Assembly (NCBI RefSeq): GCF_001936595.1
Contig: NZ_MLBG01000004.1
Span: 1 to 64,000 of the forward strand
From: Desulfovibrio sp. DV
GTDB taxonomy: Bacteria > Desulfobacterota > Desulfovibrionia > Desulfovibrionales > Desulfovibrionaceae
DNA: 64,000 bases
Direction of reading: 5' to 3'
Part shown: piece by piece, positions 5,872 to 50,674 of the stretch
Layout of the letters: the number at the start of each line of letters is the position of its first letter
Numbering within the stretch: the stretch's first letter is position 1
The notes under the pieces: generated by a model
What the model was told of the DNA's origin: nothing
Seen by the model: the letters and a program-made list of their open reading frames with translations, nothing else
Databases searched by the model: none
Translations under genes and position numbers: made by a program

Positions 5872-7332
5872 TTACTTCGAATCCGTAATGGGCACGGTGC
5901 GGAAAACGGTCTGGCTCTGGCGCTTGATCAGTAGCATGACCACGCCCTTTTTCTTGCCGTCCTCGCCCACGATCTTCTTGAAGTCCTCGGGAGAGGCCAC
6001 CGGGCGCTGGTTGATTTCCAGGATCACGTCACCCGGGCGGACATCAGCCTGCTCGGCTTCAGAGCCGTCAGCCACTTCCGTTATCAGCAGCCCCTGGGCC
6101 TTGTCCATGCCCAGGGCCTTGGCTTCCTTGGCCGACAGGCCGCGCACCGACAGGCCAAGGGCGGAAGCGCTCTGATCGCCTTCGGCGTCGGCGTTGTCGT
6201 CGCCCTGTCCCGGAGCGTTCTGGGCCAGCTTTTTGGCGTCGCGCTCACCCAGGGTGACGCTGACGGTGACCGGGGAACCCTTGCGGGTGACCGACAGTTC
6301 CACGGAATCGCCGGGGCGGATGGCAGCGACGCGGCGCAGCAGGTCATTGGAGTTCTCGATCTTCTGGCCGGCCACGGCAGTGATGACGTCGCCGGTCTTG
6401 ATGCCGCCCTTGGCCGCAGGCTGCCCTTCAATGACCGAGCTTATAAGCGCGCCGTTGGTGTTTTCCAGGCCCAGGGCCTTGGCGGTGTTCTCGTCGATAT
6501 CCTGGATGGTGACGCCAAGCCAGCCGCGCTGAACCTTCTTGCCGTCGCGCAACTGGGCAATGACGTCCTTGGCCATGTTGGACGGAATGGCGAACCCGAT
6601 GCCCTGGCCCGAGGCCACGATGGCGGTGTTGATGCCGACGACCTTGCCGTCGAGGTCAATGAGCGGCCCGCCGGAGTTGCCCGGGTTGATCGAGGCATCG
6701 GTCTGGATGAAGTTGTCAAAGGGGCCGGCCCCGATGATGCGGCCCTTGGCGCTGACAATGCCGAGCGTCACGGTATTTTCCAGGCCAAAGGGGTTGCCGA
6801 TGGCCAGGACCCATTCGCCGACCTTCATCTTGCCCGAGTCGCCGAACTCCAGGAAGGGCAGGTTGGACTTGCCGTCGATCTTGAGCAGGGCCAGATCGGT
6901 TTCCGGGTCGCGGCCAATGATCTTGGCGGCCAGGGCCTTTTCGTTGTGCCGGAACTGAACCTTGACCTCGTCGGCGCCCTCAACCACATGGTTGTTGGTG
7001 ACGATGAAGCCGTCGGCGGAGATGACAAAGCCGGAACCCATGGAGCGCTGCTTCTGGCCCTTGCCGTTGCCGCGGCCCTGGGGTCCGAAGTGCTTTTCGA
7101 ACTGGTCGAAAAAGTCGTCCATGGGGCCGCCGCGCTTGCGGAACTGTTCCAGAAGGTCACGTCCGCCTTCCTGGGCCTTGATGGTTTTGGTGGTGGAGAT
7201 GTTGACGACGGCAGGGCCGTCCTTGTCGACGAGTTCCGTGATGTCGGGCAAAGGGATTCGAGCCTGGGCCATGGTTGTCCAGGCCAGGAAGAGGAAGGCG
7301 CTTACAAGCGGGGTGAGGAAGCGTTTGGCCAT
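5872..7332 (-). CDS. degP: Periplasmic Do/HtrA family serine protease
   Basis: Envelope quality-control protease and chaperone. The start at 7332 follows an AGGAG site and yields a signal peptide (MAKRFLTPLVSAFLFLAWTTMAQA). The trypsin-like domain has the full catalytic triad: His115 in TNNHVV, Asp146 in ETDLALLKI and Ser220 in GNSGGPL. Two PDZ domains follow (about residues 275-365 and 385-480). Length 486 fits DegP/DegQ. The acidic linker between the PDZ domains (GQGDDNADAEGD) is variable in the family. Its promoter should lie in the 400 bp upstream, which contains an inverted repeat. DegP, DegQ and MucD cannot be separated by sequence alone. Confidence 0.94.
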   Translation of the reverse strand: MAKRFLTPLVSAFLFLAWTTMAQARIPLPDITELVDKDGPAVVNISTTKTIKAQEGGRDLLEQFRKRGGPMDDFFDQFEKHFGPQGRGNGKGQKQRSMGSGFVISADGFIVTNNHVVEGADEVKVQFRHNEKALAAKIIGRDPETDLALLKIDGKSNLPFLEFGDSGKMKVGEWVLAIGNPFGLENTVTLGIVSAKGRIIGAGPFDNFIQTDASINPGNSGGPLIDLDGKVVGINTAIVASGQGIGFAIPSNMAKDVIAQLRDGKKVQRGWLGVTIQDIDENTAKALGLENTNGALISSVIEGQPAAKGGIKTGDVITAVAGQKIENSNDLLRRVAAIRPGDSVELSVTRKGSPVTVSVTLGERDAKKLAQNAPGQGDDNADAEGDQSASALGLSVRGLSAKEAKALGMDKAQGLLITEVADGSEAEQADVRPGDVILEINQRPVASPEDFKKIVGEDGKKKGVVMLLIKRQSQTVFRTVPITDSK

Positions 7333-7736
7333 GAGGAACTCCTGTGTTCGGGGACCGCGAGCCGTGTCGGCCGGGTGCCCCCTGGTCGCTGTATCCGTTT
7401 GTGTCGACGAAGCGGCGAATGCGGGATTATTCGTCCTGTTATACGCCGGTTGAAGCTGTTGTAAACCGTGGCCTGGACACTGCGCCTGTGCCCGGGATGT
7501 GGCGCAGGGACCGAGGCCGGCGGCTTGGTCTTGTCCTTTTCTTGACAAGAAGCTGTGGGGGAAATAGTAAAGTTTGTTTGGCGCGCGTCAATTGCCTGTT
7601 TTCGCGGACAAAGCCGGAAAATCCAGCTTTGGTCATGAAAAAAAGTCGTGTAAAGTTGGCGTGTTGCGTTTATTCTTCCGATGATTGGCCGATGCTAACT
7701 GAAGGAAGCATGAACATCGTTTCATGCATATACCGT
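7333..7736. other. Intergenic region between degP and tRNA-Arg
   Basis: No gene is seen in these 404 bp. At 7529-7550 there is a perfect 7-bp inverted repeat (TCTTGTC / GACAAGA, 8-bp spacer), about 200 bp upstream of degP, that could be a regulator site. The AT-richer stretch 7560-7730 should hold the divergent promoters of degP (minus) and tRNA-Arg (plus). Confidence 0.5.
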
Positions 7737-7813
7737 GCTCCCGTAGCTCAGTAGGATAGAGCGATCGCCTCCTAAGCGATAGGCCGTGCGTTCGAATCGC
7801 GCCGGGAGCACCA
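7737..7813 (+). tRNA. tRNA-Arg (anticodon CCT), integration target
   Basis: A 77-nt cloverleaf: acceptor GCTCCCG/CGGGAGC, anticodon stem ATCGC/GCGAT around loop CTCCTAA (anticodon CCT), T-loop TTCGAAT, discriminator A and encoded CCA. Its 3' 49 nt (7764-7812) recur exactly at 27707-27755, so the gene was the attachment site of the mobile element and its 3' end was rebuilt by the element. At the other copy the last base is C rather than A, so the element supplies the terminal A of the encoded CCA. Confidence 0.96.
7764..7812 (+). repeat. attL core, 49-bp direct repeat
   Basis: Identical to 27707-27755. It covers the anticodon stem-loop, T-arm and acceptor 3' strand of tRNA-Arg(CCT). Strand exchange must have occurred somewhere inside these 49 bp; tyrosine recombinases often cut in the anticodon loop. 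Confidence 0.93.
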
Positions 7814-7821
7814 TAAAAATC

Positions 7822-7854
7822 AAGGGGTTAAGCCAGGGTGGCTTAGCCCTTTTT
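7822..7854 (+). terminator. Element-borne terminator after tRNA-Arg
   Basis: A hairpin (AAGGGGTTAAGCCA against TGGCTTAGCCCTT) is followed by TTTTT. It replaces the native terminator displaced to 27762-27795, so the tRNA keeps a functional 3' end after integration. Confidence 0.7.
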
Positions 7855-7870
7855 ACGTTGAAAAGTGATA

Positions 7871-7894
7871 TGGCCCCGCTCTGGCCCCGCTTTT
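7871..7894 (+). repeat. 24-bp repeat inside attL, possible integrase arm site
   Basis: Identical to 27570-27593 in the same orientation and itself made of two tandem TGGCCCCGCT units 11 bp apart. It begins 58 bp inside the attL core. Arm-type sites for tyrosine integrases are typically short direct repeats placed like this; the role is inferred. Confidence 0.6.
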
Positions 7895-8221
7895 GAAGGT
7901 TATGGTGAGTGAAGTTGAGTGGAGATTGCCCGAGTCCGGGAGATTGGGAAGCGGCCCATGGGGGGCAGTCCTTCTTGCCGAGGTCCGCAAGGCGTCGGAT
8001 CACCAGTGCGGCTTAAGCCCGAAGTGAGGGCGTGATAGAAGTCTGAGTAATTGTGGGTCCCCTGGCCGGCAACGCAAGGACGTCCCTTGCCATGAATACC
8101 CTTGCCGCTGCCGAAGCCCGGCCCCGCCTGCTATGGCAAGGATTATTCCCGACCGGCGAAAAACCTTGAATGCCTCAAGGCCTATAGGCTACAGGTTTTC
8201 GCACATCGTACAGGGGGGGCT
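7895..8221. other. Non-coding left end of the element
   Basis: About 330 bp without a convincing gene. It should contain the promoter of the restriction gene that starts at 8222. The GGGGGGG just before that start makes an unusually long Shine-Dalgarno. Confidence 0.4.
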
Positions 8222-41310: not shown

Positions 41311-42018
41311 TCAAACAGACAGAAACGGCATGGCCATGAAGTAGATTCCAAGAAGCGCAATCATTGCCCCGGCGGTTTTTCGGAACCAAGTTCCCCCGTG
41401 GCGCATGGCCCCATTTTCCAGCCAACGTTGGACCAGGGCCGTTGAACTGCCGGCCACCACGATGGGAAGACAGTGCCCAACTGCGAACAGCACAATGAGT
41501 ACCACGCCGGTGAGGATCTTTTCCTGAATGGTGATGATGGCCAGGATGGGCGCGATAAAACCGAAGGTGCACGAACCGGACAGAACGCCGTAGGCCAAGC
41601 CGAGGAGAAACGCTCCGCCAACGCCCTTGACCTTGAGCTTGCTCATCATGCCGCCGGAGACCGAGCACTTGGCCACCCCCATCATGTCCAGGGACACCCA
41701 AATCAGCACGGCACCGACCAGGATAGTCCAATATGGGCCGATATCCCCAAGCATCCGCCCAAGGAGCGTACAGAGAATCCCGATGGTTGCTATGGTCAGA
41801 AACAGGCCGGAGGTAAAGGCGACGGCATAGCGCGCCGCCTCCCGGCCATGGATGATTCTGCCTTGCCCGGCGACATAGCCAACGATCAAGGGGATGGAAG
41901 CCAAGTGGCAGGGGCTGAAAAGAACACTTACCAGACCCCAGAGGAAACAGCCGAGCGCCGCAACGATGAGGCTGCCGGTCATCCAGGTATTGATGGTCAA
42001 AAACAGGTGGTCCAGCAC
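41311..42018 (-). CDS. CcdA-like thiol-disulfide membrane protein
   Basis: 235-residue membrane protein of the CcdA/DsbD-gamma family that moves electrons from cytoplasmic thioredoxin to the periplasm. Six predicted helices. The paired redox Cys lie in SVLFSPCHLASIPLIVGY and VLSGSCTFGFIAPI, the usual positions in helices 1 and 4. The gene follows the periplasmic thioredoxin by 12 bp, its probable electron acceptor. Confidence 0.9.
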   Translation of the reverse strand: MLDHLFLTINTWMTGSLIVAALGCFLWGLVSVLFSPCHLASIPLIVGYVAGQGRIIHGREAARYAVAFTSGLFLTIATIGILCTLLGRMLGDIGPYWTILVGAVLIWVSLDMMGVAKCSVSGGMMSKLKVKGVGGAFLLGLAYGVLSGSCTFGFIAPILAIITIQEKILTGVVLIVLFAVGHCLPIVVAGSSTALVQRWLENGAMRHGGTWFRKTAGAMIALLGIYFMAMPFLSV

Positions 42019-42030
42019 GTGATGCTCTCC

Positions 42031-42399
42031 TTACTGGGCCAGCAATTTGTCCAACTTTTCGCTGATCGCAGCCTTGTCCAGAAAGCCTTCGTGGCGATAC
42101 GTTTCTTTTCCATTCTTATCGTAAAAAATTTGCGTCGGAATAAGCTTCAGCCCAAATTTAGCGCCCTGTTCTCTGTTCTCCCAGACATCGATAAAAAGGA
42201 CCGCCGCTTTCCCTTGGTATTCTTTTTCCAATTCTTCCAGGATGGGAGCCATCATTTTGCACGGGATACAGGCTTTTGCTCCGATATCCACCATGGTTAC
42301 CATGCCCTTGGCCGGAACCTCAGGGACGGGCGCGGCAGCGAAGCAAACCCCAGCGCTCAGCACGATGGCGAGAGCAAAAAACAGAGTAATATGTTTCAT
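42031..42399 (-). CDS. Periplasmic thioredoxin-like protein
   Basis: 122 residues. Start at 42399 has a GAGAGGA site and yields a signal peptide (KHITLFFALAIVLSAGVCFA). The mature domain is thioredoxin-like with active site CIPC in GAKACIPCKMMAPILEEL, and the cis-Pro in GLKLIPTQIFYD. The CcdA-like protein encoded next should keep it reduced. An inverted repeat upstream (42540-42558) may regulate the pair. Confidence 0.92.
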   Translation of the reverse strand: MKHITLFFALAIVLSAGVCFAAAPVPEVPAKGMVTMVDIGAKACIPCKMMAPILEELEKEYQGKAAVLFIDVWENREQGAKFGLKLIPTQIFYDKNGKETYRHEGFLDKAAISEKLDKLLAQ

Positions 42400-42801
42400 A
42401 GAGTTCCTCTCTTGAAAGTAGTTTGTATGAGAAGCAGGAAGTGTGCCATAATTTTGCCGTGAATTTTCAGTGTCTTGTTGAATTTTCCTCCTTTGACGTG
42501 TAGCATATGAAAAATTAATATACACACGAAACAGTCTGTGTGTCTAAGCAATAGACACATTATATGGCTATATCATACTTGCATGCTATAGATCTATATT
42601 TATCACAACACTTGAATTTGGTCGTGCATGGTGCTTTTCTGCCGTACCTACGCGGCTACCCGACCGAATATTGAAATGTGTGCGCATCCGCGTGTTCCCG
42701 GGGACAAGGCTGCTCCAGGGCGTCAGCCGCAGGCGGCAAGAGGGCCAAACCAACCAAGAAGAGATGGTCCTCTCCATTTGTGGGTTTCGAAGACCTGCCG
42801 C
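42400..42801. other. Intergenic region upstream of the thioredoxin-ccdA pair
   Basis: No gene in about 400 bp. 42470-42600 is AT-rich and holds the promoter and inverted repeat of the thioredoxin gene. 42640-42790 is GC-rich with no convincing protein and may be a degraded gene. Confidence 0.4.
42540..42558 (-). promoter_or_regulatory. Inverted repeat upstream of the thioredoxin-ccdA operon
   Basis: Perfect 6-bp arms GTGTCT / AGACAC with a 7-bp spacer, in an AT-rich stretch 140 bp before the thioredoxin start. A candidate operator for an unknown regulator. Confidence 0.4.
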
Positions 42802-43032
42802 TTACTGCAGCCAGGAAAGAACGTCCCCTTTGGATGGCACTTTGCCCACCACTTTGACCTCGCCATCAATGACGACTGCAGGCGTAGAAAATACGCCAAA
42901 GCTGGCGATCTGCTGAAAATCCGCAATCTTTTCCACCGTGGCGGCAACTCCGGATTCCTTGACAGCCTCCAAGACGATTTTTTCTGCTTCTTTGCATTTG
43001 GCGCATCCGGGACCAAGAACCTTGATTTCCAT
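42802..43032 (-). CDS. Mini-thioredoxin (redox-active disulfide protein)
   Basis: 76 residues: MEIKVLGPGCAKCKEAEKIV with CAKC active site and cis-Pro in VFSTPAVVIDGEV. These short thioredoxin_3 proteins are often encoded beside DUF318/ArsP permeases and ArsR regulators. It lies 37 bp after the permease and probably belongs to the same operon, in line with a thiol role in metalloid handling. Confidence 0.92.
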   Translation of the reverse strand: MEIKVLGPGCAKCKEAEKIVLEAVKESGVAATVEKIADFQQIASFGVFSTPAVVIDGEVKVVGKVPSKGDVLSWLQ

Positions 43033-43069: not shown

Positions 43070-44158
43070 TTAGTAGAGATAATTGAAAAGGTATCCCACA
43101 AAAGCAATTCCCAACCCAACAACTCCAGCAAAAACCATGATAAGTCGTGGCTTGAGTACTTTCCTCAAGATGATCATTTCAGGCAATGACAAAGCAATCA
43201 CTGCCATCATGAACGCCAGAACGGTGCCGAGCGCAGCACCTTTCCCCAGGAGCGCCTCAACGACCGGGACGATGCCCGCCGCGTTCGAATACATGGGTAT
43301 GCCGATCAGGACGGCCGCCGGTACGGACCACCAAGCGTCCTTGCCCATGATGGAGGCCATGAAGCCTTCAGGCACGTAGCCATGGATGCCTGCGCCCACG
43401 GCAATACCGATCACAACGTAAATCCAGACCTTGCCGACGATATCCTTGACGGCATGAAAGCCTGCTTCAATCCGATCCGTCCAGGTCTGTTCATCGGGGG
43501 GCAAGACAGATGGGTCGGTGCGGATTTTCATGACCCAATCCTCGACGTAGGGCTCCAGATTGAGCTTGCCGAGCACCCAGCCCGCAACGATAGCAATGGC
43601 CAAACCGGTGCCGAGATAAAGGGCGGCCACCTTCCAGCCGAGCAGGCCGTAAAGCAGCACCAAGGCGATCTCATTGACCATGGGAGCCGATATCAGAAAG
43701 GAAAAGGTCACGCCCATGGGGACGCCTGCCGTAACGAAGCCAATAAAGAGCGGAACTGCCGAGCAGGAGCAAAAGGGGGTGACGATGCCGAGCAAGGCGG
43801 CCAGCACGTTGCCAGCCGATTCGCGTTTTCCGGCCAGCACGCGGCGAGTACGCTCCGGCGTGAAAAAGGTGCGGATGACGCCCACGCCAAAGACCACCAG
43901 GGTCAGCAACATGAGCACCTTGGGCGTGTCATAGAGCAGGAATTCGACGGAGTCGCCAAGAGGACTTCCCTGGGCGATCCCCAGGACATCATAGGTCAGC
44001 AGACGGGAAAACCCGGGCAGCATTCCGTACACCACCCACCAGACGACCAGGGCCGGCGCAAGCAGCAAAAGATAGCCGACAAGCTTTCCGTTGTGCGGGT
44101 GTGCGCTTTCGGCCACGGCTTCCTTGGTACAGCAGCTCATTTTTCCAAGTGGTTCCAT
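43070..44158 (-). CDS. ArsP/DUF318-family permease
   Basis: 362-residue membrane protein with about 9-10 helices. The conserved VTPFCSCSAVPLFIGFVTAGVPMG and YSNAAGIVPVVEALLGKG are hallmarks of the DUF318 permease family, whose ArsP members export trivalent organoarsenicals. Start at 44158 follows GAGGAG; the N-terminus MSCCTK offers a Cys pair. Flanked by ArsR, a DGC protein and a thioredoxin, so metalloid efflux is the likely role, though the substrate is not provable here. Confidence 0.88.
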   Translation of the reverse strand: MEPLGKMSCCTKEAVAESAHPHNGKLVGYLLLLAPALVVWWVVYGMLPGFSRLLTYDVLGIAQGSPLGDSVEFLLYDTPKVLMLLTLVVFGVGVIRTFFTPERTRRVLAGKRESAGNVLAALLGIVTPFCSCSAVPLFIGFVTAGVPMGVTFSFLISAPMVNEIALVLLYGLLGWKVAALYLGTGLAIAIVAGWVLGKLNLEPYVEDWVMKIRTDPSVLPPDEQTWTDRIEAGFHAVKDIVGKVWIYVVIGIAVGAGIHGYVPEGFMASIMGKDAWWSVPAAVLIGIPMYSNAAGIVPVVEALLGKGAALGTVLAFMMAVIALSLPEMIILRKVLKPRLIMVFAGVVGLGIAFVGYLFNYLY

Positions 44159-44243: not shown

Positions 44244-44626
44244 TCAGGACAGATTGGCGAAATGCGGGACCGTAGCCATGGCAGCCGTCAGCACACGCTC
44301 CTCGGTCACGGGACTTTCCCCTTTTTTATAACCCAGATCGGCCAACTGCACATGGCCGAAGTCGGTGAATCCGGCCTCTTCCAGCGACTTGCGGGCGCAG
44401 TTGAGGGGACAGCCATCGATGGCCACGATCTTCGACGCTGCTTCCGTGGTCTTGAGGATGCCGCTGACGCGACCGCCGATACCGGCCAGACAGAACATCT
44501 TGGCCACACCGTCCGCTGTGAGTTTCCTGGCAACTTGATCAGCCAAGGCCCCGACGTCGGCTCCGCCGGAGCAGGCGAATACCAGTTTGGGGGCGGCGGA
44601 ACAGCAGGAGCTTTTTTCTCGGACAT
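44244..44626 (-). CDS. DGC-domain zinc-binding protein, start separated by a frameshift at A6
   Basis: The main frame reads SSCCSAAPKLVFACSGGADV, then KMFCLAGIGG and IDGCPLNCARKSLEEAGF, the DGC (Asp-Gly-Cys) putative metal-binding family. The only ATG with a good ribosome site (GGAG, 44626) opens another frame reading MSEKK. A one-base shift at the A6 run (plus strand 44612-44617) joins them as MSEKKSSCCSAAPKL, the expected start. The run AAAAAAG is a known slippery type. Alternatives are real -1 slippage, a sequencing error, or initiation upstream at 44708. It lies between ArsR and the permease. Confidence 0.7.
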
Positions 44627-44689
44627 GGGTTTGTCTCCAGTGTTTTGCCAAGACGACTTCCTGAGAGCGGTAATCTTGACGGTGTTTGT

Positions 44690-44705
44690 ATGTTTTGCCA
44701 AATAG
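44690..44705 (-). promoter_or_regulatory. Putative ArsR operator before the DGC-permease operon
   Basis: ATGTTTTGCCAAATAG matches 14 of 16 positions of the complement of the 45067-45082 site. It sits between the arsR stop and the DGC start, in position to control the downstream genes. Confidence 0.5.
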
Positions 44706-44726
44706 CAAAATATCAACGCAAAAAAA

Positions 44727-45041
44727 TTACCCGGGATTCGACTCTGAAGACTCGTAGGGCGAGTACGAGTAAACCACTTTAACACATGAGAAAAGTTGCA
44801 AAACGCAGGAGGGTGGCAGGCTATAGTAGACCTGCATGCGCCTTTTATCCGAAGCGCTGATCCCTGCTTCGCGAAGCTGGATTAAATGATTGGAAATTAT
44901 GGAGATATCCGCGCCGACCAGCTTCGTCAATTCGCAGACGTTTCGTTGGACGCGCGAAAGTTCGTCAACAATAAGCAGGCGGGTTTCATGGCCTGATGCC
45001 TTGAATGTCTGGATGTGTGACGAAAATTGTAGCGTCGGCAT
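44727..45041 (-). CDS. ArsR/SmtB-like metalloregulator 1
   Basis: 104-residue winged helix: FKASGHETRLLIVDELSRVQRNVCEL, then VGADISIISNHLIQLREAGI as recognition region and QVYYSL as wing. The usual ELCVCDL metal motif is NVCELTKL, with a single Cys. Further Cys are near the C-terminus (SCVLQLFSCVKV), so metal sensing could use those. Two copies of a near-palindrome flank the gene and are its likely operators. Confidence 0.85.
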   Translation of the reverse strand: MPTLQFSSHIQTFKASGHETRLLIVDELSRVQRNVCELTKLVGADISIISNHLIQLREAGISASDKRRMQVYYSLPPSCVLQLFSCVKVVYSYSPYESSESNPG

Positions 45042-45226: not shown

Positions 45227-46636
45227 TTATACCTGTGCAGGCACACCAAAATCAGTATGTTTGAATTTGTCAACACCATGGATATCATCGCAGCAATCGT
45301 GGAACTCTCCAGATTCATCTTCTTGGCCCATGCATTGGAGAAGTCCCATGCTCCATAGGCAGTCGCCACAAGGAACTGTTTCGCCGTAACAGTCATATTC
45401 GAAATCAATACTATTGATGTCTTCACAGGGGAACACATTGCAGCCAGGGCAATGCGGGTATCTCTTCTGCATGACATCAGAGCGAAATGCTTTATAATTC
45501 GAGCTATTCCATATTTCAGTTAGCGAATCATGGGATAAGTCTCCAAATAATTTATGAGCGACTTGCTTCTCTCTCCCATAGAAATAGCAGTTAAAGCTTC
45601 GCCAGAGAAAATGGCACGGAGACACCTTGCCATCCCAGGCAATAAACGCACCGCCCTGTTTGACTCCCAAACAGGCGTGCCCGCTGACTGGCCTTACAGG
45701 CGGCAGAAGAAGCCGAAGGCCAACAGCACCGGCAACGGCCTCTGCCTTGCGGAAGACGGCCTCCACCGGACCAACATCATCGCCATCGGTCAGATTCGCA
45801 ACATGGAGCGAGATATCGGTTTCAAGTGCCTGGGACACCATCCGCTGGACAAAGCTCACCAACCGCAGGTCGTGCGGCGTCTTGTGATACTTCCACAGCA
45901 CATTGAAGTATTGTGTAATATCTATTCCCTCTTGGCGCGCCTGGTCAGACCAAGCCTCGTAAAAATACTTGGCCGAATTTGTATTGATGCCAAAGACAGT
46001 CTGGTCCGCCAATGCAGAACTAAAAGGCAAAACATGGGACACGACAAGCCTGCTTACGCCACGTTTGGCCAGCCACGCAATGATAGATGGAAGTTCAGCA
46101 ATGTTGTCGCGCATGACAACAAACTCCGCGCCGACCTCCAACGTGTTCCCCGGGTGTTCCTTTTTCGCTTGAGCCAAAGCCGTCAGGGCACGTTCAATAT
46201 GTCCCAGACTGCCTCCACCACGGACGGCCTTGAAAAGCTCCGGAGACGTCGAGTCCACGGAAAGAAAGATCCTGTCCAGCCCGGCCGCAATGAGTGAAGA
46301 ACTGCGAGCCGTGTCGAGGAGATGCCCGTTTGTTTGAAAACCTACCCAGCTTCGGGCAGGCATGGAGCGTTTGCCCGTTCGAATGAATTCTTCGAGCAGC
46401 GGATGCAGCAGCGGTTCGCCTATGCCGTTGAGGACCAGGGCTTGAAGGTGCTTCAACTCTGGTGCTAACGCATTGAACGTTTCTGGAAGCATGTCGCCGT
46501 CAATTGACTTGGCAGCCCCGGATTGCTTTACACATATGGCGCAACGAAGATTGCATCTGGACGTCACCTCCACAAAGAGCCGGGAAGGATGATGCCGTTG
46601 CGACAGGTCGTCGTGCGTGTTGTCAACACTTGTCAT
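45227..46636 (-). CDS. Radical SAM/SPASM maturase next to a RiPP-like precursor
   Basis: 469 residues. Start at 46636 follows GAGGCG. The radical SAM [4Fe-4S] motif is CNLRCAICV (Cys28, Cys32, Cys35), followed by LNGIGEPLLHP and SVDSTSPELF. The C-terminal third is Cys-rich (CPGCNVFPCEDINS, DCYGETVPCGDCLW, LLQCMG), as in SPASM enzymes that bind auxiliary clusters. The PCGDCLW ending recalls SPASM enzymes predicted to mature tungsten or other metallo-oxidoreductases. The small gene just upstream encodes a likely substrate peptide. Confidence 0.85.
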   Translation of the reverse strand: MTSVDNTHDDLSQRHHPSRLFVEVTSRCNLRCAICVKQSGAAKSIDGDMLPETFNALAPELKHLQALVLNGIGEPLLHPLLEEFIRTGKRSMPARSWVGFQTNGHLLDTARSSSLIAAGLDRIFLSVDSTSPELFKAVRGGGSLGHIERALTALAQAKKEHPGNTLEVGAEFVVMRDNIAELPSIIAWLAKRGVSRLVVSHVLPFSSALADQTVFGINTNSAKYFYEAWSDQARQEGIDITQYFNVLWKYHKTPHDLRLVSFVQRMVSQALETDISLHVANLTDGDDVGPVEAVFRKAEAVAGAVGLRLLLPPVRPVSGHACLGVKQGGAFIAWDGKVSPCHFLWRSFNCYFYGREKQVAHKLFGDLSHDSLTEIWNSSNYKAFRSDVMQKRYPHCPGCNVFPCEDINSIDFEYDCYGETVPCGDCLWSMGLLQCMGQEDESGEFHDCCDDIHGVDKFKHTDFGVPAQV

Positions 46637-46720
46637 TAAGCGCCTCGCGTGGATAGCACATTCATAAAGTCCCCTGTCTGGCGATTGCAAGTACGGAGAA
46701 CGACAGTGCTTGATCGCCTG

Positions 46721-47047
46721 TTACTTGGCACATCCGGCCGCAGGGTTTTTGCATTTTTTTGGATCACACCCTTGGACTTCGACCCCGTCAACTTCGCACA
46801 CTGCCACATATGGGCTTAAGAATTTGACGCCCTCTTTGTGATTTGGCAAAACGAGCCACACCTCTGTTGTGGTTGATTCTACAACATGAACTGTGACGCC
46901 TTCTTGGACAATTACGCCTTCTTCAGCCAAAACTTGGTTTGGTTTAGTGAGTAACCTATTTTTATACTGTGGGTTGGAAAAAGTTTTTTCTACAATAGAG
47001 TTCCAATTGTCGGTTTTCACCTTGTCCTCCAGTGTAATGGAGTTCAT
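46721..47047 (-). CDS. Nitrile-hydratase-leader (NHLP) RiPP precursor
   Basis: 108 residues. Residues 15-75 follow the nitrile-hydratase-alpha-like leader: WNSIVEKTFSNPQYKNRLLT, KPNQVLAEEGVIV and VTVHVVESTTTEVWLVLP. In NHLP precursors this leader docks modifying enzymes. The C-terminal tail holds all four Cys (84, 94, 99, 106) in CEVDGVEVQGCDPKKCKNPA, a possible modified core. There is no double-glycine cleavage site and no transporter or peptidase nearby. The radical SAM/SPASM gene follows by 84 bp on the same strand. Confidence 0.8.
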   Translation of the reverse strand: MNSITLEDKVKTDNWNSIVEKTFSNPQYKNRLLTKPNQVLAEEGVIVQEGVTVHVVESTTTEVWLVLPNHKEGVKFLSPYVAVCEVDGVEVQGCDPKKCKNPAAGCAK

Positions 47048-47162: not shown

Positions 47163-48260
47163 TTACCGCTCGGACGGACAGGCCACATGACAGACGCCGG
47201 TCGGCGTTTCCACCGCATACGGAAAATACTTGCTCCGGAAAAACAGAGCGACATTCACGAGCGCGATCAGTACCGGAACCTCCACAAGGGGACCGATCAC
47301 TGCGGCGAAGGCCTCGCCGGAATTGATGCCGAAAACGGCAATGGCTACGGCAATGGCCAGCTCAAAATTGTTGGATGCGGCGGTAAAGCTGAGCGTAGTC
47401 GCCTGTTCGTAAGTCGCTCCAGCTTTGGCCGAGAGATAAAACGACGCCAGAAACATGAGCAAGAAATAGATGCCCAGGGGAATGGCGATGCGCACAACGT
47501 CGAACGGCAACTGCACGATGTATTCGCCCTTGAGCGAAAACATCACCAGGATGGTAAAGAGCAGAAAAACGAGGGTCAGCGGGCTGATTTTCGGAACGAA
47601 GACGGTTTCATACCAGTGTTCGCCCTTCATTTTGAGTCCGACAAACCGCGTGATCATGCCGGCAAGAAACGGTATGCCAAGATAAATGAAGACGCTTTCG
47701 GCGATCTGTCCCATGGAGATGTCGACCACAACACCCTCAAGGCCGAACACTTTGGGCAGCACCGTGATAAAGAAATAGGCGTAGACGGAAAAGAAAAGTA
47801 CCTGAAAAATGGAGTTGAAAGCCACCAGCCCGGCGCAGTATTCCCGGTCGCCCTGGGCCAGATCGTTCCAGACGATGACCATGGCGATGCAGCGGGCCAG
47901 TCCTATGAGGATGAGGCCGACCATGTATTCGTGATAGCCTGAGAGAAAAGCAATCGCTAGAAAGAACATCAGCACTGGACCGATGATCCAGTTCTGCACC
48001 AGTGAAAGGGCAAGCACTTTTCCGTTGCGAAACACCTGCCCCAACTGCTCGTACTTCACCTTGGCCAGCGGTGGGTACATCATCAAAATGAGACCAAGAG
48101 CTATGGGGATGTTGGTTGTCCCCACCTGAAAGGCATTGATGATGTCTTTCGTTCCAGGATATAAATACCCCACCCCGACACCGACAAACATGGCGGTAAA
48201 AATCCACACCGTCAGGAAGCGATCAAGAAATGACAGTTTTTTTACAACGCTCTCACTCAT
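47163..48260 (-). CDS. acr3: ACR3-family arsenite efflux transporter
   Basis: Exports arsenite (and often antimonite) using the membrane potential. 365 residues with ten predicted helices. The ACR3 signature region [25 protein letters not shown] contains the essential Cys, and [23 protein letters not shown] is the conserved helix 9. The C-terminus ends CHVACPSER with two extra Cys. It follows arsR 2 by 21 bp. Confidence 0.95.
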
Positions 48261-48281: not shown

Positions 48282-48629
48282 TCAGCCGCAGTGCCCGTGC
48301 AATTTCGTTTTGAGGTGCTGCCGCAGGCGGGCCTCATCCCGCCGTGCCGTTTCAGAGTCGCCGAGGTGCTCCTGCAGGACATCCATCACGTTGATGAGGA
48401 CGGCATGATGCGGGATGGACAATTTGTAGTGCATCCACTTGCCGGCGCGCCGACCGCTCACCCACTGCTCTTTTTTCAAGAAACTCAAATGTCTTGAAAC
48501 TTTGGGCTGTGGCACATCGAGTGCTCCCATCAAATCGCAGACGCACAACTCGCCGTGGCGCAACAGGTTGAGCAACCGCAGCCGGGTCGGATCTGCCAGG
48601 GCCTTGAATCCTGCAGCAAGTTCGTTCAT
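48282..48629 (-). CDS. arsR: ArsR arsenical-responsive repressor 2
   Basis: 115 residues with the classic arsenite-sensing ELCVCDL motif (Cys pair about residues 29-31) in the HTH helix, then VPQPKVSRHLSFLKKEQWVSGRRAGKWMHYKL. C-terminal HGHCG adds a further Cys. It represses itself and acr3; the perfect-armed inverted repeat at 48642-48657, 13 bp before the start, is the probable operator. Confidence 0.95.
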   Translation of the reverse strand: MNELAAGFKALADPTRLRLLNLLRHGELCVCDLMGALDVPQPKVSRHLSFLKKEQWVSGRRAGKWMHYKLSIPHHAVLINVMDVLQEHLGDSETARRDEARLRQHLKTKLHGHCG

Positions 48630-48680: not shown

Positions 48681-49195
48681 GGCCGGGCCACGGTCTTTGG
48701 CGACGCCAACGACCCCGCATCCTCTGTTCGGGAATGCATGGGGTCGGCTCAAGGAAGAGCAGGGCACCCGGTGCGGGCGGTTGCAGGCCTGTGGCAAGGC
48801 CTACATGGATGGGCAGTTCGTGAATAAGTACGGAAAAAGGGCGGGTCTGGACTTCGAGAACATGGTCAAGGCCAAGGACTCCATGACCGGCAAGGCCTAC
48901 CTGCCCTACGGCGGCTATCTGCCCTCGCCCCCGGACAGCACGGGCAAGCCCCTTGATGACCTGGCCGCCGGCTACGCCCTGACCATGATCACCTACAAGG
49001 CCGTGACCCAGACCAAAAAACGCACCTCAGGCGACGACTGGCGCAAGGCCCCGTATCCGGGGAACTTTGTGGAATTCTCGGCAGCCGATGCGGCCCGCTT
49101 GGGCTTCCAGGCCGGCGACGCGGTCAAGATCGTCTCGGCCTCCAAGCCGGCTGCCCCGAAGTTCTCTTCGGGGCAGCTGCTTTTGAGACAGAGAT
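48681..49195 (+). pseudogene. Remnant of a molybdopterin oxidoreductase operon
   Basis: Two fragments in different frames. First, ATVFGDANDPASSVRECM (48690-48740 region) matches the end of the four-cluster ferredoxin subunit (TtrB/PsrB/ArrB-like). Then KAYLPYGGYLPSPPDSTG, LTMITYKAVTQTKKRTS and NFVEFSAADAARLGFQAGDA follow; this is the C-terminal molybdopterin-binding region of the catalytic subunit. The middle of both genes is missing. Location beside ars genes makes arsenate reductase (Arr) possible, but Ttr/Psr/Phs types fit as well. Confidence 0.65.
49151..49176 (+). terminator. Intrinsic terminator
   Basis: Perfect 11-bp stem (CTGCCCCGAAG) with a TTCT loop, followed by CTGCTTTTG. It ends the broken oxidoreductase locus. 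Confidence 0.7.
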
Positions 49196-49477: not shown

Positions 49478-50041
49478 CTAGCGTCCGCTGCAGCCGCTTC
49501 TGATGATTTCGCAATTGTTGATGCAGGTCGGGCGCGTGTAGGCTTCCCGGCGGGACAGGCCCTGGCAGCCGGCCATGCACTTTTCATATTGATTGGCACA
49601 CGATTCCTGTGAATAGGCCGGCGTCATGCCTCTGTAGGGCACGCTCTCCTGGACAAGGACCCGTGATTCGATGACACGTCCCGGACGAACGTCTTCGATA
49701 TAAAAGATCTGGCCGGATTGGTCACGGGTATAGAGCCTTTGGCCTTCGTCAAGAGAGTAGGGGCGGTCGTCGTCTTCGATGTAGTAGAGGATTCCGCTCA
49801 AGCCGGCTGGCTGTGTCACCTGCCGGGTGACCAGATGCATGCCGCCTCTGCTGTCGACGTAGTAGTCTTGTTGCGAATCGGTATGGACAAAACGTCTGAC
49901 AGTAGTGGATTCCTGTACATACGCCGGCTGGCGGGCAGAGGGTTCATACCGTCTGCTCTGGGCTGAGGCGGTCGTGCCAGGGACCAGCAGCGAAGCGATG
50001 AACAGCATGGCTGCGGTCATATTGGTTAGTCTTGTGGTCAT
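49478..50041 (-). CDS. Secreted Cys-rich hypothetical protein
   Basis: 187 residues with a signal peptide (MTAAMLFIASLLVPGTTASA). Start at 50041 follows CAGGAG. The middle has repeated Tyr/Asp/Arg-rich strands (LYYIEDDDRPYSLDEGQRLY, IFYIEDVRPGRVIES), which look like two copies of a short beta unit. The end carries six Cys (SCANQYEKCMAGC ... CINNCEIIRSGC), fit for disulfides. Family unknown. Likely periplasmic. Confidence 0.65.
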   Translation of the reverse strand: MTTRLTNMTAAMLFIASLLVPGTTASAQSRRYEPSARQPAYVQESTTVRRFVHTDSQQDYYVDSRGGMHLVTRQVTQPAGLSGILYYIEDDDRPYSLDEGQRLYTRDQSGQIFYIEDVRPGRVIESRVLVQESVPYRGMTPAYSQESCANQYEKCMAGCQGLSRREAYTRPTCINNCEIIRSGCSGR

Positions 50042-50100
50042 AACAATTCTCCTGGGCTGGTAGTGGGTGCGTTCGCCTCTGGCCCCTGCCGGTCCTTGCA

Positions 50101-50132
50101 CCTCTTTTGCCCCGGATCAGGGGCAAAAGAGG
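50101..50132 (-). terminator. Perfect hairpin after the collagen-like gene
   Basis: 13-bp perfect stem (CCTCTTTTGCCCC) with a 6-nt loop. It separates the collagen-like gene from the secreted-protein gene. Confidence 0.65.
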
Positions 50133-50185: not shown

Positions 50186-50674
50186 TTATTGCACGATAAT
50201 GGTCGTGGGCTTTTCATCACCAGTGGTCCCGCGCGCACCGGTGTTGCCGGTGTTGCCTTGGCGTCCGGTGTTGCCCTTGTTGCCGGTGGCTCCGGTTGCC
50301 CCGGTGCCGCCAGCGGCTCCGGTAGCGCCTGTGCCGCCGGAGGCTCCGGTGGCGCCGGTGTCGCCGGCAGCCCCGGCAGCCCCGGTTGCCCCGGTGTAGC
50401 CCGTGTCGCCGGTATTGCCTTGGCGACCGGCGTTGCCCTTGTTGCCTGTTGCTCCGGTGGCACCGGTATAACCGGTATCGCCGGTGTTGCCTTGGCGACC
50501 GACGCTGCCCTTATTGCCTGTGGCCCCGGTGGCACCGGTATAGCCGGTGTTGCCTTGATTGCCTGGGGCTCCCTGGGGACCGGCCGGGCCGGTGCAGGCG
50601 GTGAAGATGAGCGCCCCGGCCAGGGAAAGGGACAGAGCGACTGTTTTGGTAAGCGTATGCAAAGTGACGTTCAT
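50186..50674 (-). CDS. Collagen-like lipoprotein
   Basis: 162 residues. Lipobox at LIFTAC with Cys27 as lipidation site. From residue 29 to 154 it is an unbroken run of 42 Gly-X-Y triplets ([12 protein letters not shown] ...), ending in a short KPTTIIVQ tail. The triplets form a 24-residue repeat ([24 protein letters not shown]) seen about three times, so the DNA repeats every 72 bp and could change length. Thr in the Y position may stabilise the triple helix. Surface or periplasmic fibre protein. Confidence 0.85.

Follow-up and report, generated by a model that had tools for sequence, protein, structure and literature searches.

We analysed a window of 64,000 nucleotides, the whole stretch of DNA presented here, in which an arsenic-resistance (ars) island occupies the minus strand from 48629 down to 41311 in the order arsR1, acr3, peptide, enzyme, arsR2, DGC, arsP, thioredoxins, and dsbD. 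A preliminary description had proposed a two-gene locus for a precursor peptide and a radical SAM/SPASM enzyme between two arsenic gene sets. This arrangement is confirmed: both genes are on the minus strand, with arsR1-acr3 upstream of the pair, arsR2-DGC-arsP-thioredoxins-DsbD downstream, and a single strand used throughout. The two ArsR-family regulators (arsR1, 48282..48629; arsR2, 44727..45041) match PF01022, and the gene for the arsenite efflux transporter, acr3 (47163..48260), matches TIGR00832 at 454.5 bits against a cut-off of 282.8. The gene for the DGC-domain protein (44244..44708) has six A residues just after the conserved ATG, compared with seven in three other copies (window 44590-44680); because this run is one base shorter, the conserved start is out of frame and the open reading frame (ORF) runs in from upstream. 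The ArsP_1-family permease (43070..44158) scores 252.6 bits with Pfam and 143 bits with NCBIfam SaoE, below the cut-off of 325, and ArsP-family permeases are no proof of arsenic specificity. The island ends with a small thioredoxin of the MTH895/ArsE family (42802..43032; TIGR00412, 99 bits against 62), a thioredoxin-like protein (42031..42525), and a DsbD-like membrane protein (41311..42018; Pfam DsbD_TM).

Eighteen window proteins between approximately 37.3 and 55.9 kb were scanned with Pfam. None of them is a peptidase or an ABC exporter, in agreement with the earlier remark that no transporter or protease accompanies the peptide, and one (49481-50101) has no Pfam match. At 48681-49191 the window holds remnants (an Fe-S fragment, 48681-48746, and a MopB fragment, 48766-49191) of the Fe-S/NrfD/TtrA-like molybdopterin-oxidoreductase operon that lies beside the other copy of the island described below. 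A collagen-like repeat protein (Pfam Collagen) with a lipoprotein-like start, as judged by eye, is found at 50186-50674.

The peptide gene (46721..47020, minus strand) would encode 99 amino acids from a GTG start. The ORF reported previously extended to an ATG at 47047 (46721-47047); the gene itself is present, and its start is most likely the GTG at 47020, because the starts aligned in ten other copies and the window sequence GGAGG-ACAAG-GTG both favor this position. GGAGG also precedes the aligned start in those ten copies. The predicted product consists of a leader (approximately residues 1 to 65) and a conserved Cys-rich tail (approximately residues 66 to 99, FLSPYVAVCEVDGVEVQGCDPKKCKNPAAGCAK). 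The NHLP leader profile TIGR03793 matches with an E value of 2e-12, at 47.0 bits for the 99-aa form and 46.7 bits for the long ORF, just below the curated cut-off of 50.9, and on these scores the peptide is a diverged relative of the TIGR03793 leader domain. Pfam NHase_alpha (PF02979) was matched above its gathering cut-off (36.3 versus 27.2 bits) over residues 23-74 of the long ORF, and both nitrile hydratases in the PDB and NHLP precursors were among the peptide matches. The proposal of a nitrile-hydratase-type leader is thus upheld. A structure model built from a three-row alignment had a mean pLDDT of 56; values approached 80 for residues 11-40 alone and fell below 50 for residues 58-99.

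The tail, with the consensus FLSPYVAV...CxNPAAGCA and three or four Cys residues, is far more conserved than the leader. Four Cys are present in the window peptide and three to four in all 10 intact copies, a number sufficient for arsenic coordination by three thiolates; in the aligned relatives, the two Cys of CxNPAAGC are the sole invariant ones. A GG/GA-type cleavage site between leader and core and a peptidase or ABC exporter in the cluster are both proteusin traits. No GG was conserved in five aligned relatives, as expected from the original account of a four-Cys tail lacking the usual GG site, and the scanned region of the window (approximately 37.3-55.9 kb) likewise supplied neither peptidase nor exporter. 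The M-Y-G splice motif carried by the core of spliceotides of the PlpX type is absent from all 10 intact tails.

We compared substitution rates in six pairs drawn from four ars-island copies, leaving out the pair G078b-G529c, which is out of frame. The tail dN was 0.013-0.039, compared with 0.118-0.256 for the leader, and dS was 0.27-1.7 in the same pairs. The peptide is therefore under purifying selection, with dN well below dS. Antibiotic-type proteusins would be expected to show the opposite pattern, with the leader more conserved than the core; a frozen tail with a faster leader fits a fixed intracellular role. The same genome (G000, 4.85 Mb) contains a second ars island (C8:33000-50000, locus L045) with approximately 90% DNA identity to the first over 7.4 kb. 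In its peptide gene a poly-A run is one A shorter, and the resulting frameshift puts the last Cys residues out of frame. This frameshift is either a mutation or a sequencing error; the poly-A run of the DGC gene is a second homopolymer difference in the assembly. Purifying selection, together with the recurrence of the island in the same genome and in relatives, indicates that the peptide locus is more than a chance ORF.

The adjacent gene (45227..46636, minus strand) is predicted to encode a radical SAM/SPASM enzyme of 469 amino acids. Its start is most likely the ATG at 46636, with a TTG at 46690 as the alternative, and its close relative in G125 begins at the same place. The protein matches NCBIfam TIGR04311 (rSAM_Geo_metal) over its full length with 596.8 bits against a cut-off of 400. 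Radical_SAM and SPASM are its only Pfam domains, and no RiPP-recognition (PqqD-like) domain was detected by Pfam. The CxxxCxxC motif and the SPASM Cys are nearly invariant in 69 homologues: the three radical-SAM Cys and nine further C-terminal Cys are kept in 99-100% of them, one more C-terminal Cys is kept in 83%, and a Cys pair in the C-terminal extension is found in less than 10%. This bears out the strongly Cys-rich SPASM end noted at the outset. The locus had also been presented as a candidate for an undescribed system, which does not hold for the enzyme family, as it is already named; however, the label "putative metalloenzyme maturase" is a name without tested function. An enzyme model obtained from the single sequence had a pLDDT of 39 and was left unused.

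A profile search gave NHLP matches in 8 of 14 Solidesulfovibrio genomes, seven of which encode the full Cys tail and one of which (G532) does not. The tailed peptide was confirmed in this genus only. Tandem NHLP copies in G532 and G533 were rejected as tailed peptides, since they have no tail, although some carry other Cys, and the NHLP-like protein of G013 was rejected for its missing tail. A partial tail-like stretch in G529 (L153), considered as a second carrier, is part of a 234-aa ORF whose start is unrelated, and it was read as a relic. The tail DNA pattern was found in 5 of 150 genomes of the order, namely four Solidesulfovibrio genomes, all with the enzyme, and one genome of another genus (G121) without it; the reversed pattern, used as a control, had no match in the 150. 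In a search aimed beyond the genus, 103 pattern stretches yielded two confirmed relatives, both in Solidesulfovibrio magneticus MAGs and seemingly already counted, and a plasmid search for the peptide returned none.

The TIGR04311 enzyme is encoded in all seven tailed-peptide genomes and in 11 of the 14 genomes of the genus, a co-occurrence that is not significant at the genus level (Fisher p 0.19). Four of these 11 genomes do not have the tailed peptide, and two of the four (G095 and G102) have a similar island. In the order sample, the enzyme was present in 4/4 tailed-peptide genomes versus 46/146 others (Fisher p 0.011, uncorrected for kinship); G013, whose NHLP match lacks the tail and whose genome lacks the enzyme, was not counted as a peptide genome. 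Adjacent peptide-enzyme pairs numbered four, two in G000 (one with the frameshifted peptide) and one each in G125 and G533, and all four, from three genomes, lie on one strand inside arsR-acr3 islands. Among other copies of the peptide, one in G529 belongs to a full ars island that lacks the enzyme, one in G078 is directly behind an arsR1 homologue, and one in G104 has a weakly arsR-like piece next to it (phmmer 1e-7, no Pfam match). A second G529 copy has only arsM-like matches approximately 4-6 kb away. One of these matches, on the opposite strand approximately 4 kb from the peptide copy, lies in an 894-aa ORF (L148 1296-3980, minus strand) with a radical-SAM domain (approximately residues 185-339) and an arsenite-methyltransferase-like domain (approximately 585-775), the latter scoring 206 bits with PRK11873, under its cut-off of 263. 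Three of the 10 intact copies (one each in G078, G529, and G530) have no searched ars-island gene in the fetched region.

The enzyme is far more widespread than the peptide. At an E value of 1e-60, 50 of the 150 genomes sampled from the order have TIGR04311, 47 of them with a score above the cut-off; at 1e-100, it was found in 19 of the 395 genomes that make up the phylum sample, 18 of them above the cut-off. Sixty-nine of the 73 known matches were fetched with their flanks (G019, G055, G058, and G073 were left out); three of the 69 loci (G009, G070, and G305) are under the TIGR04311 cut-off. A locus was scored as ars linked when acr3, arsP, arsM, or arsC lay within 6 kb at an E value below 1e-20. 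By this definition 17 of 69 loci are ars linked (8/13 in the genus and 9/56 outside), which is a lower bound because several flanks end at contig ends; the 17 include G305, which has an in-frame TGA. In a matched subset, 10 of 40 enzyme loci were ars linked compared with 0 of 40 control regions, which were taken approximately 50-60 kb away from genomes with contigs that were long enough (Fisher p 0.001, with congeners not independent). On a 69-row maximum-likelihood tree of the enzyme, the ars label required 11 changes, all forced by well-supported branches, whereas shuffled labels required a mean of 15.4 and none of 500 shuffles was as low as 11. The number of changes is low relative to shuffled labels and yet amounts to 11, indicating that ars-linked loci cluster on the tree and also recur across it; gains are indistinguishable from losses. 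An arsM gene is near the enzyme in G138, G006, and G305, and in G095, G102, G036, G111, and G443 the enzyme ORF begins -39 to +117 nt from the end of acr3.

In the remaining 52 loci, no acr3, arsP, arsM, or arsC lies within 6 kb, and the neighbors are varied: a GlpK-like kinase with an MIP channel, GntR/aminotransferase regulators, and FdhD-like, formate-dehydrogenase-like, and iron alcohol dehydrogenase proteins. This diversity would be expected if TIGR04311 had a general role unrelated to arsenic and were present in ars islands as a passenger, since such islands collect genes. We regard this as unlikely, in view of the 0/40 controls, the 11 label changes on the tree, and the repeated position directly behind acr3. 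An MIP-family channel and an FGGY (GlpK-like) kinase lie directly upstream of the enzyme in G529, G078, G104, and G530, where the peptide is elsewhere. The GlpK-like, MIP, and FdhD labels were confirmed by Pfam, which was applied to L049 among the MIP/GlpK-like loci; L052, L151, and L152 were assigned by near-identical starts. MIP-family channels can admit arsenite, which may or may not be meaningful for the enzyme loci. In G452 (L157, approximately 6364-8140) the enzyme is preceded by genes for a DsbD_2 protein and a small thioredoxin and by a short Cys-rich ORF, a set that is ars-like yet has none of the four marker genes within 6 kb. A plasmid record of Nitratidesulfovibrio vulgaris RCH1, outside the 69 loci, has the enzyme with an MFS transporter near chromate-resistance genes.

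The names of the enzyme families suggest another role, the maturation of a molybdenum or tungsten cofactor enzyme. After TIGR04311, the enzyme scores best with the NCBIfam model TIGR04317, a tungsten-cofactor maturase (248.6 bits against a cut-off of 380), and some islands (L045, L046, and L089) adjoin a TtrA-like molybdopterin-oxidoreductase operon. However, AOR was rejected as the maturation target, as its presence does not follow the enzyme: genes for the AOR N-terminal domain occur in 133 of 150 genomes of the order versus 50 with the enzyme, and among the AOR matches listed the nearest on an enzyme's contig is approximately 86 kb away (G014). A maturase of this kind is the least probable of the explanations considered and, in our judgment, quite improbable.

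The ars linkage first suggested for the pair is accordingly real and recurrent, but the pair is not an obligate unit, since 13 of the 17 ars-linked enzyme loci have no peptide and three of the 10 intact peptides have none of the searched ars genes in the fetched region. The neighborhood check revealed no adjacent homologous pair in an unrelated context; the enzyme by itself occurs elsewhere in 52/69 loci. Linkage to ars genes is supported for each part separately, because the enzyme follows acr3 without the peptide and the peptide is found in an ars island without the enzyme. These same facts favor the strongest alternative, in which the enzyme belongs to the ars operon but works on a substrate of its own, either an arsenical or a widely shared protein. 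The peptide would then be a separate accessory of the ars genes, specific to Solidesulfovibrio and located between acr3 and the enzyme; it might, for example, bind As(III) without being modified. Between acr3 and the enzyme, the four islands with the peptide have a gap of 473-526 nt, and the six islands measured that do not have it show -39 to 265 nt. Inspection by eye of the ORFs at the 69 loci showed no further small ORF with a Cys tail recurring next to ars-linked enzymes. A search for peptide remnants in 13 enzyme loci without the peptide gave only a 29-aa match (E 0.1-0.35) at one locus. The presence of the enzyme in 7/7 tailed-peptide genomes argues against independence of the two genes, as does the fact that SPASM radical-SAM enzymes commonly act on peptides (compare PMC8326336), and we consider such a division of roles rather doubtful.

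The reading that we prefer, as a tentative one that falls somewhat short of probable, is that a peptide-maturation module was recruited into an arsenic-resistance operon to give a cofactor-like modified peptide. From the gene order, the ArsR regulators would control the island. The ribosome would make the 99-aa precursor, whose nitrile-hydratase-like leader may present the conserved C-terminal tail, and the TIGR04311 enzyme, whose gene may be adjacent or at another place in the genome, would act on that tail as its putative substrate. The modification would most likely be at or near the Cys of CxNPAAGC, possibly a thioether or another C-H modification. Alongside Acr3 and ArsP as exporters, the product may then serve to handle arsenite or organoarsenicals inside the cell. 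What was observed is the order of the genes, the families to which they belong, the selection on the tail, and a recurrent linkage to ars genes, both for the enzyme and, taken by itself, for the peptide. The pairing of enzyme and tail is less well supported, because no leader-binding domain was found in the enzyme by Pfam, some enzyme loci have no peptide, and 52/69 have none of the four ars genes within 6 kb. When an NHLP precursor adjoins a SPASM enzyme, modification of the precursor is the simplest explanation, with the frozen tail as the product and the ars operon as the place of need, and it may well be correct, although we would not yet call it probable. The fuller proposal, that the product is a radical-SAM-modified, intracellular, cofactor-like RiPP dedicated to arsenic as a part of the ars operon and that TIGR04311 enzymes form a wider unrecognized ars class with other substrates in other genera, is unlikely to hold in all its parts.

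The feature is real and conserved, and the interpretation initially placed on it is partly supported. Two points seem new: TIGR04311 is repeatedly linked to ars genes, and ars islands contain an NHLP peptide whose tail is conserved. The enzyme, a SPASM radical-SAM protein repeatedly encoded with acr3 and other ars genes, has a placeholder name only, and if it does modify an arsenic-handling Cys-tailed peptide, RiPP chemistry would enter metalloid detoxification. In the PMC articles searched, no paper bears the TIGR04311 or TIGR04317 names. Among the PMC papers listed, titles and abstract openings revealed none on a RiPP that works within an ars operon and none on the peptide-enzyme-ars pairing; with subscription journals and bioRxiv outside this scope, absence in print is not thereby established.

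Compared with known systems, the enzyme resembles its own family, TIGR04311, in its full-length match well above the cut-off and its conserved SPASM Cys, whereas the ars linkage and the peptide partner are not part of the family name. PqqA and MftA, with the SPASM enzymes PqqE and MftC, are short precursors whose C-terminal core is conserved and whose partner is a SPASM radical-SAM enzyme. The pair described here shares this plan with these cofactor-type precursors but differs in its NHLP leader, its ars context, and an enzyme in which no PqqD-like domain was seen. Proteusins and other NHLP-leader RiPPs, such as the polytheonamide precursor PoyA, similarly combine a nitrile-hydratase-like leader with a nearby radical-SAM enzyme (for background, PMC8326336). 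ArsL (arsinothricin) and ArsS (arsenosugar) are also radical-SAM enzymes encoded or acting with ars genes (PMC8552651). According to the same source, ArsL has three conserved Cys, probably for one cluster, and the gene order is arsQML. The enzyme described here does not belong with ArsL, since it also has the conserved SPASM Cys and is encoded in the order arsR-acr3-peptide-enzyme.
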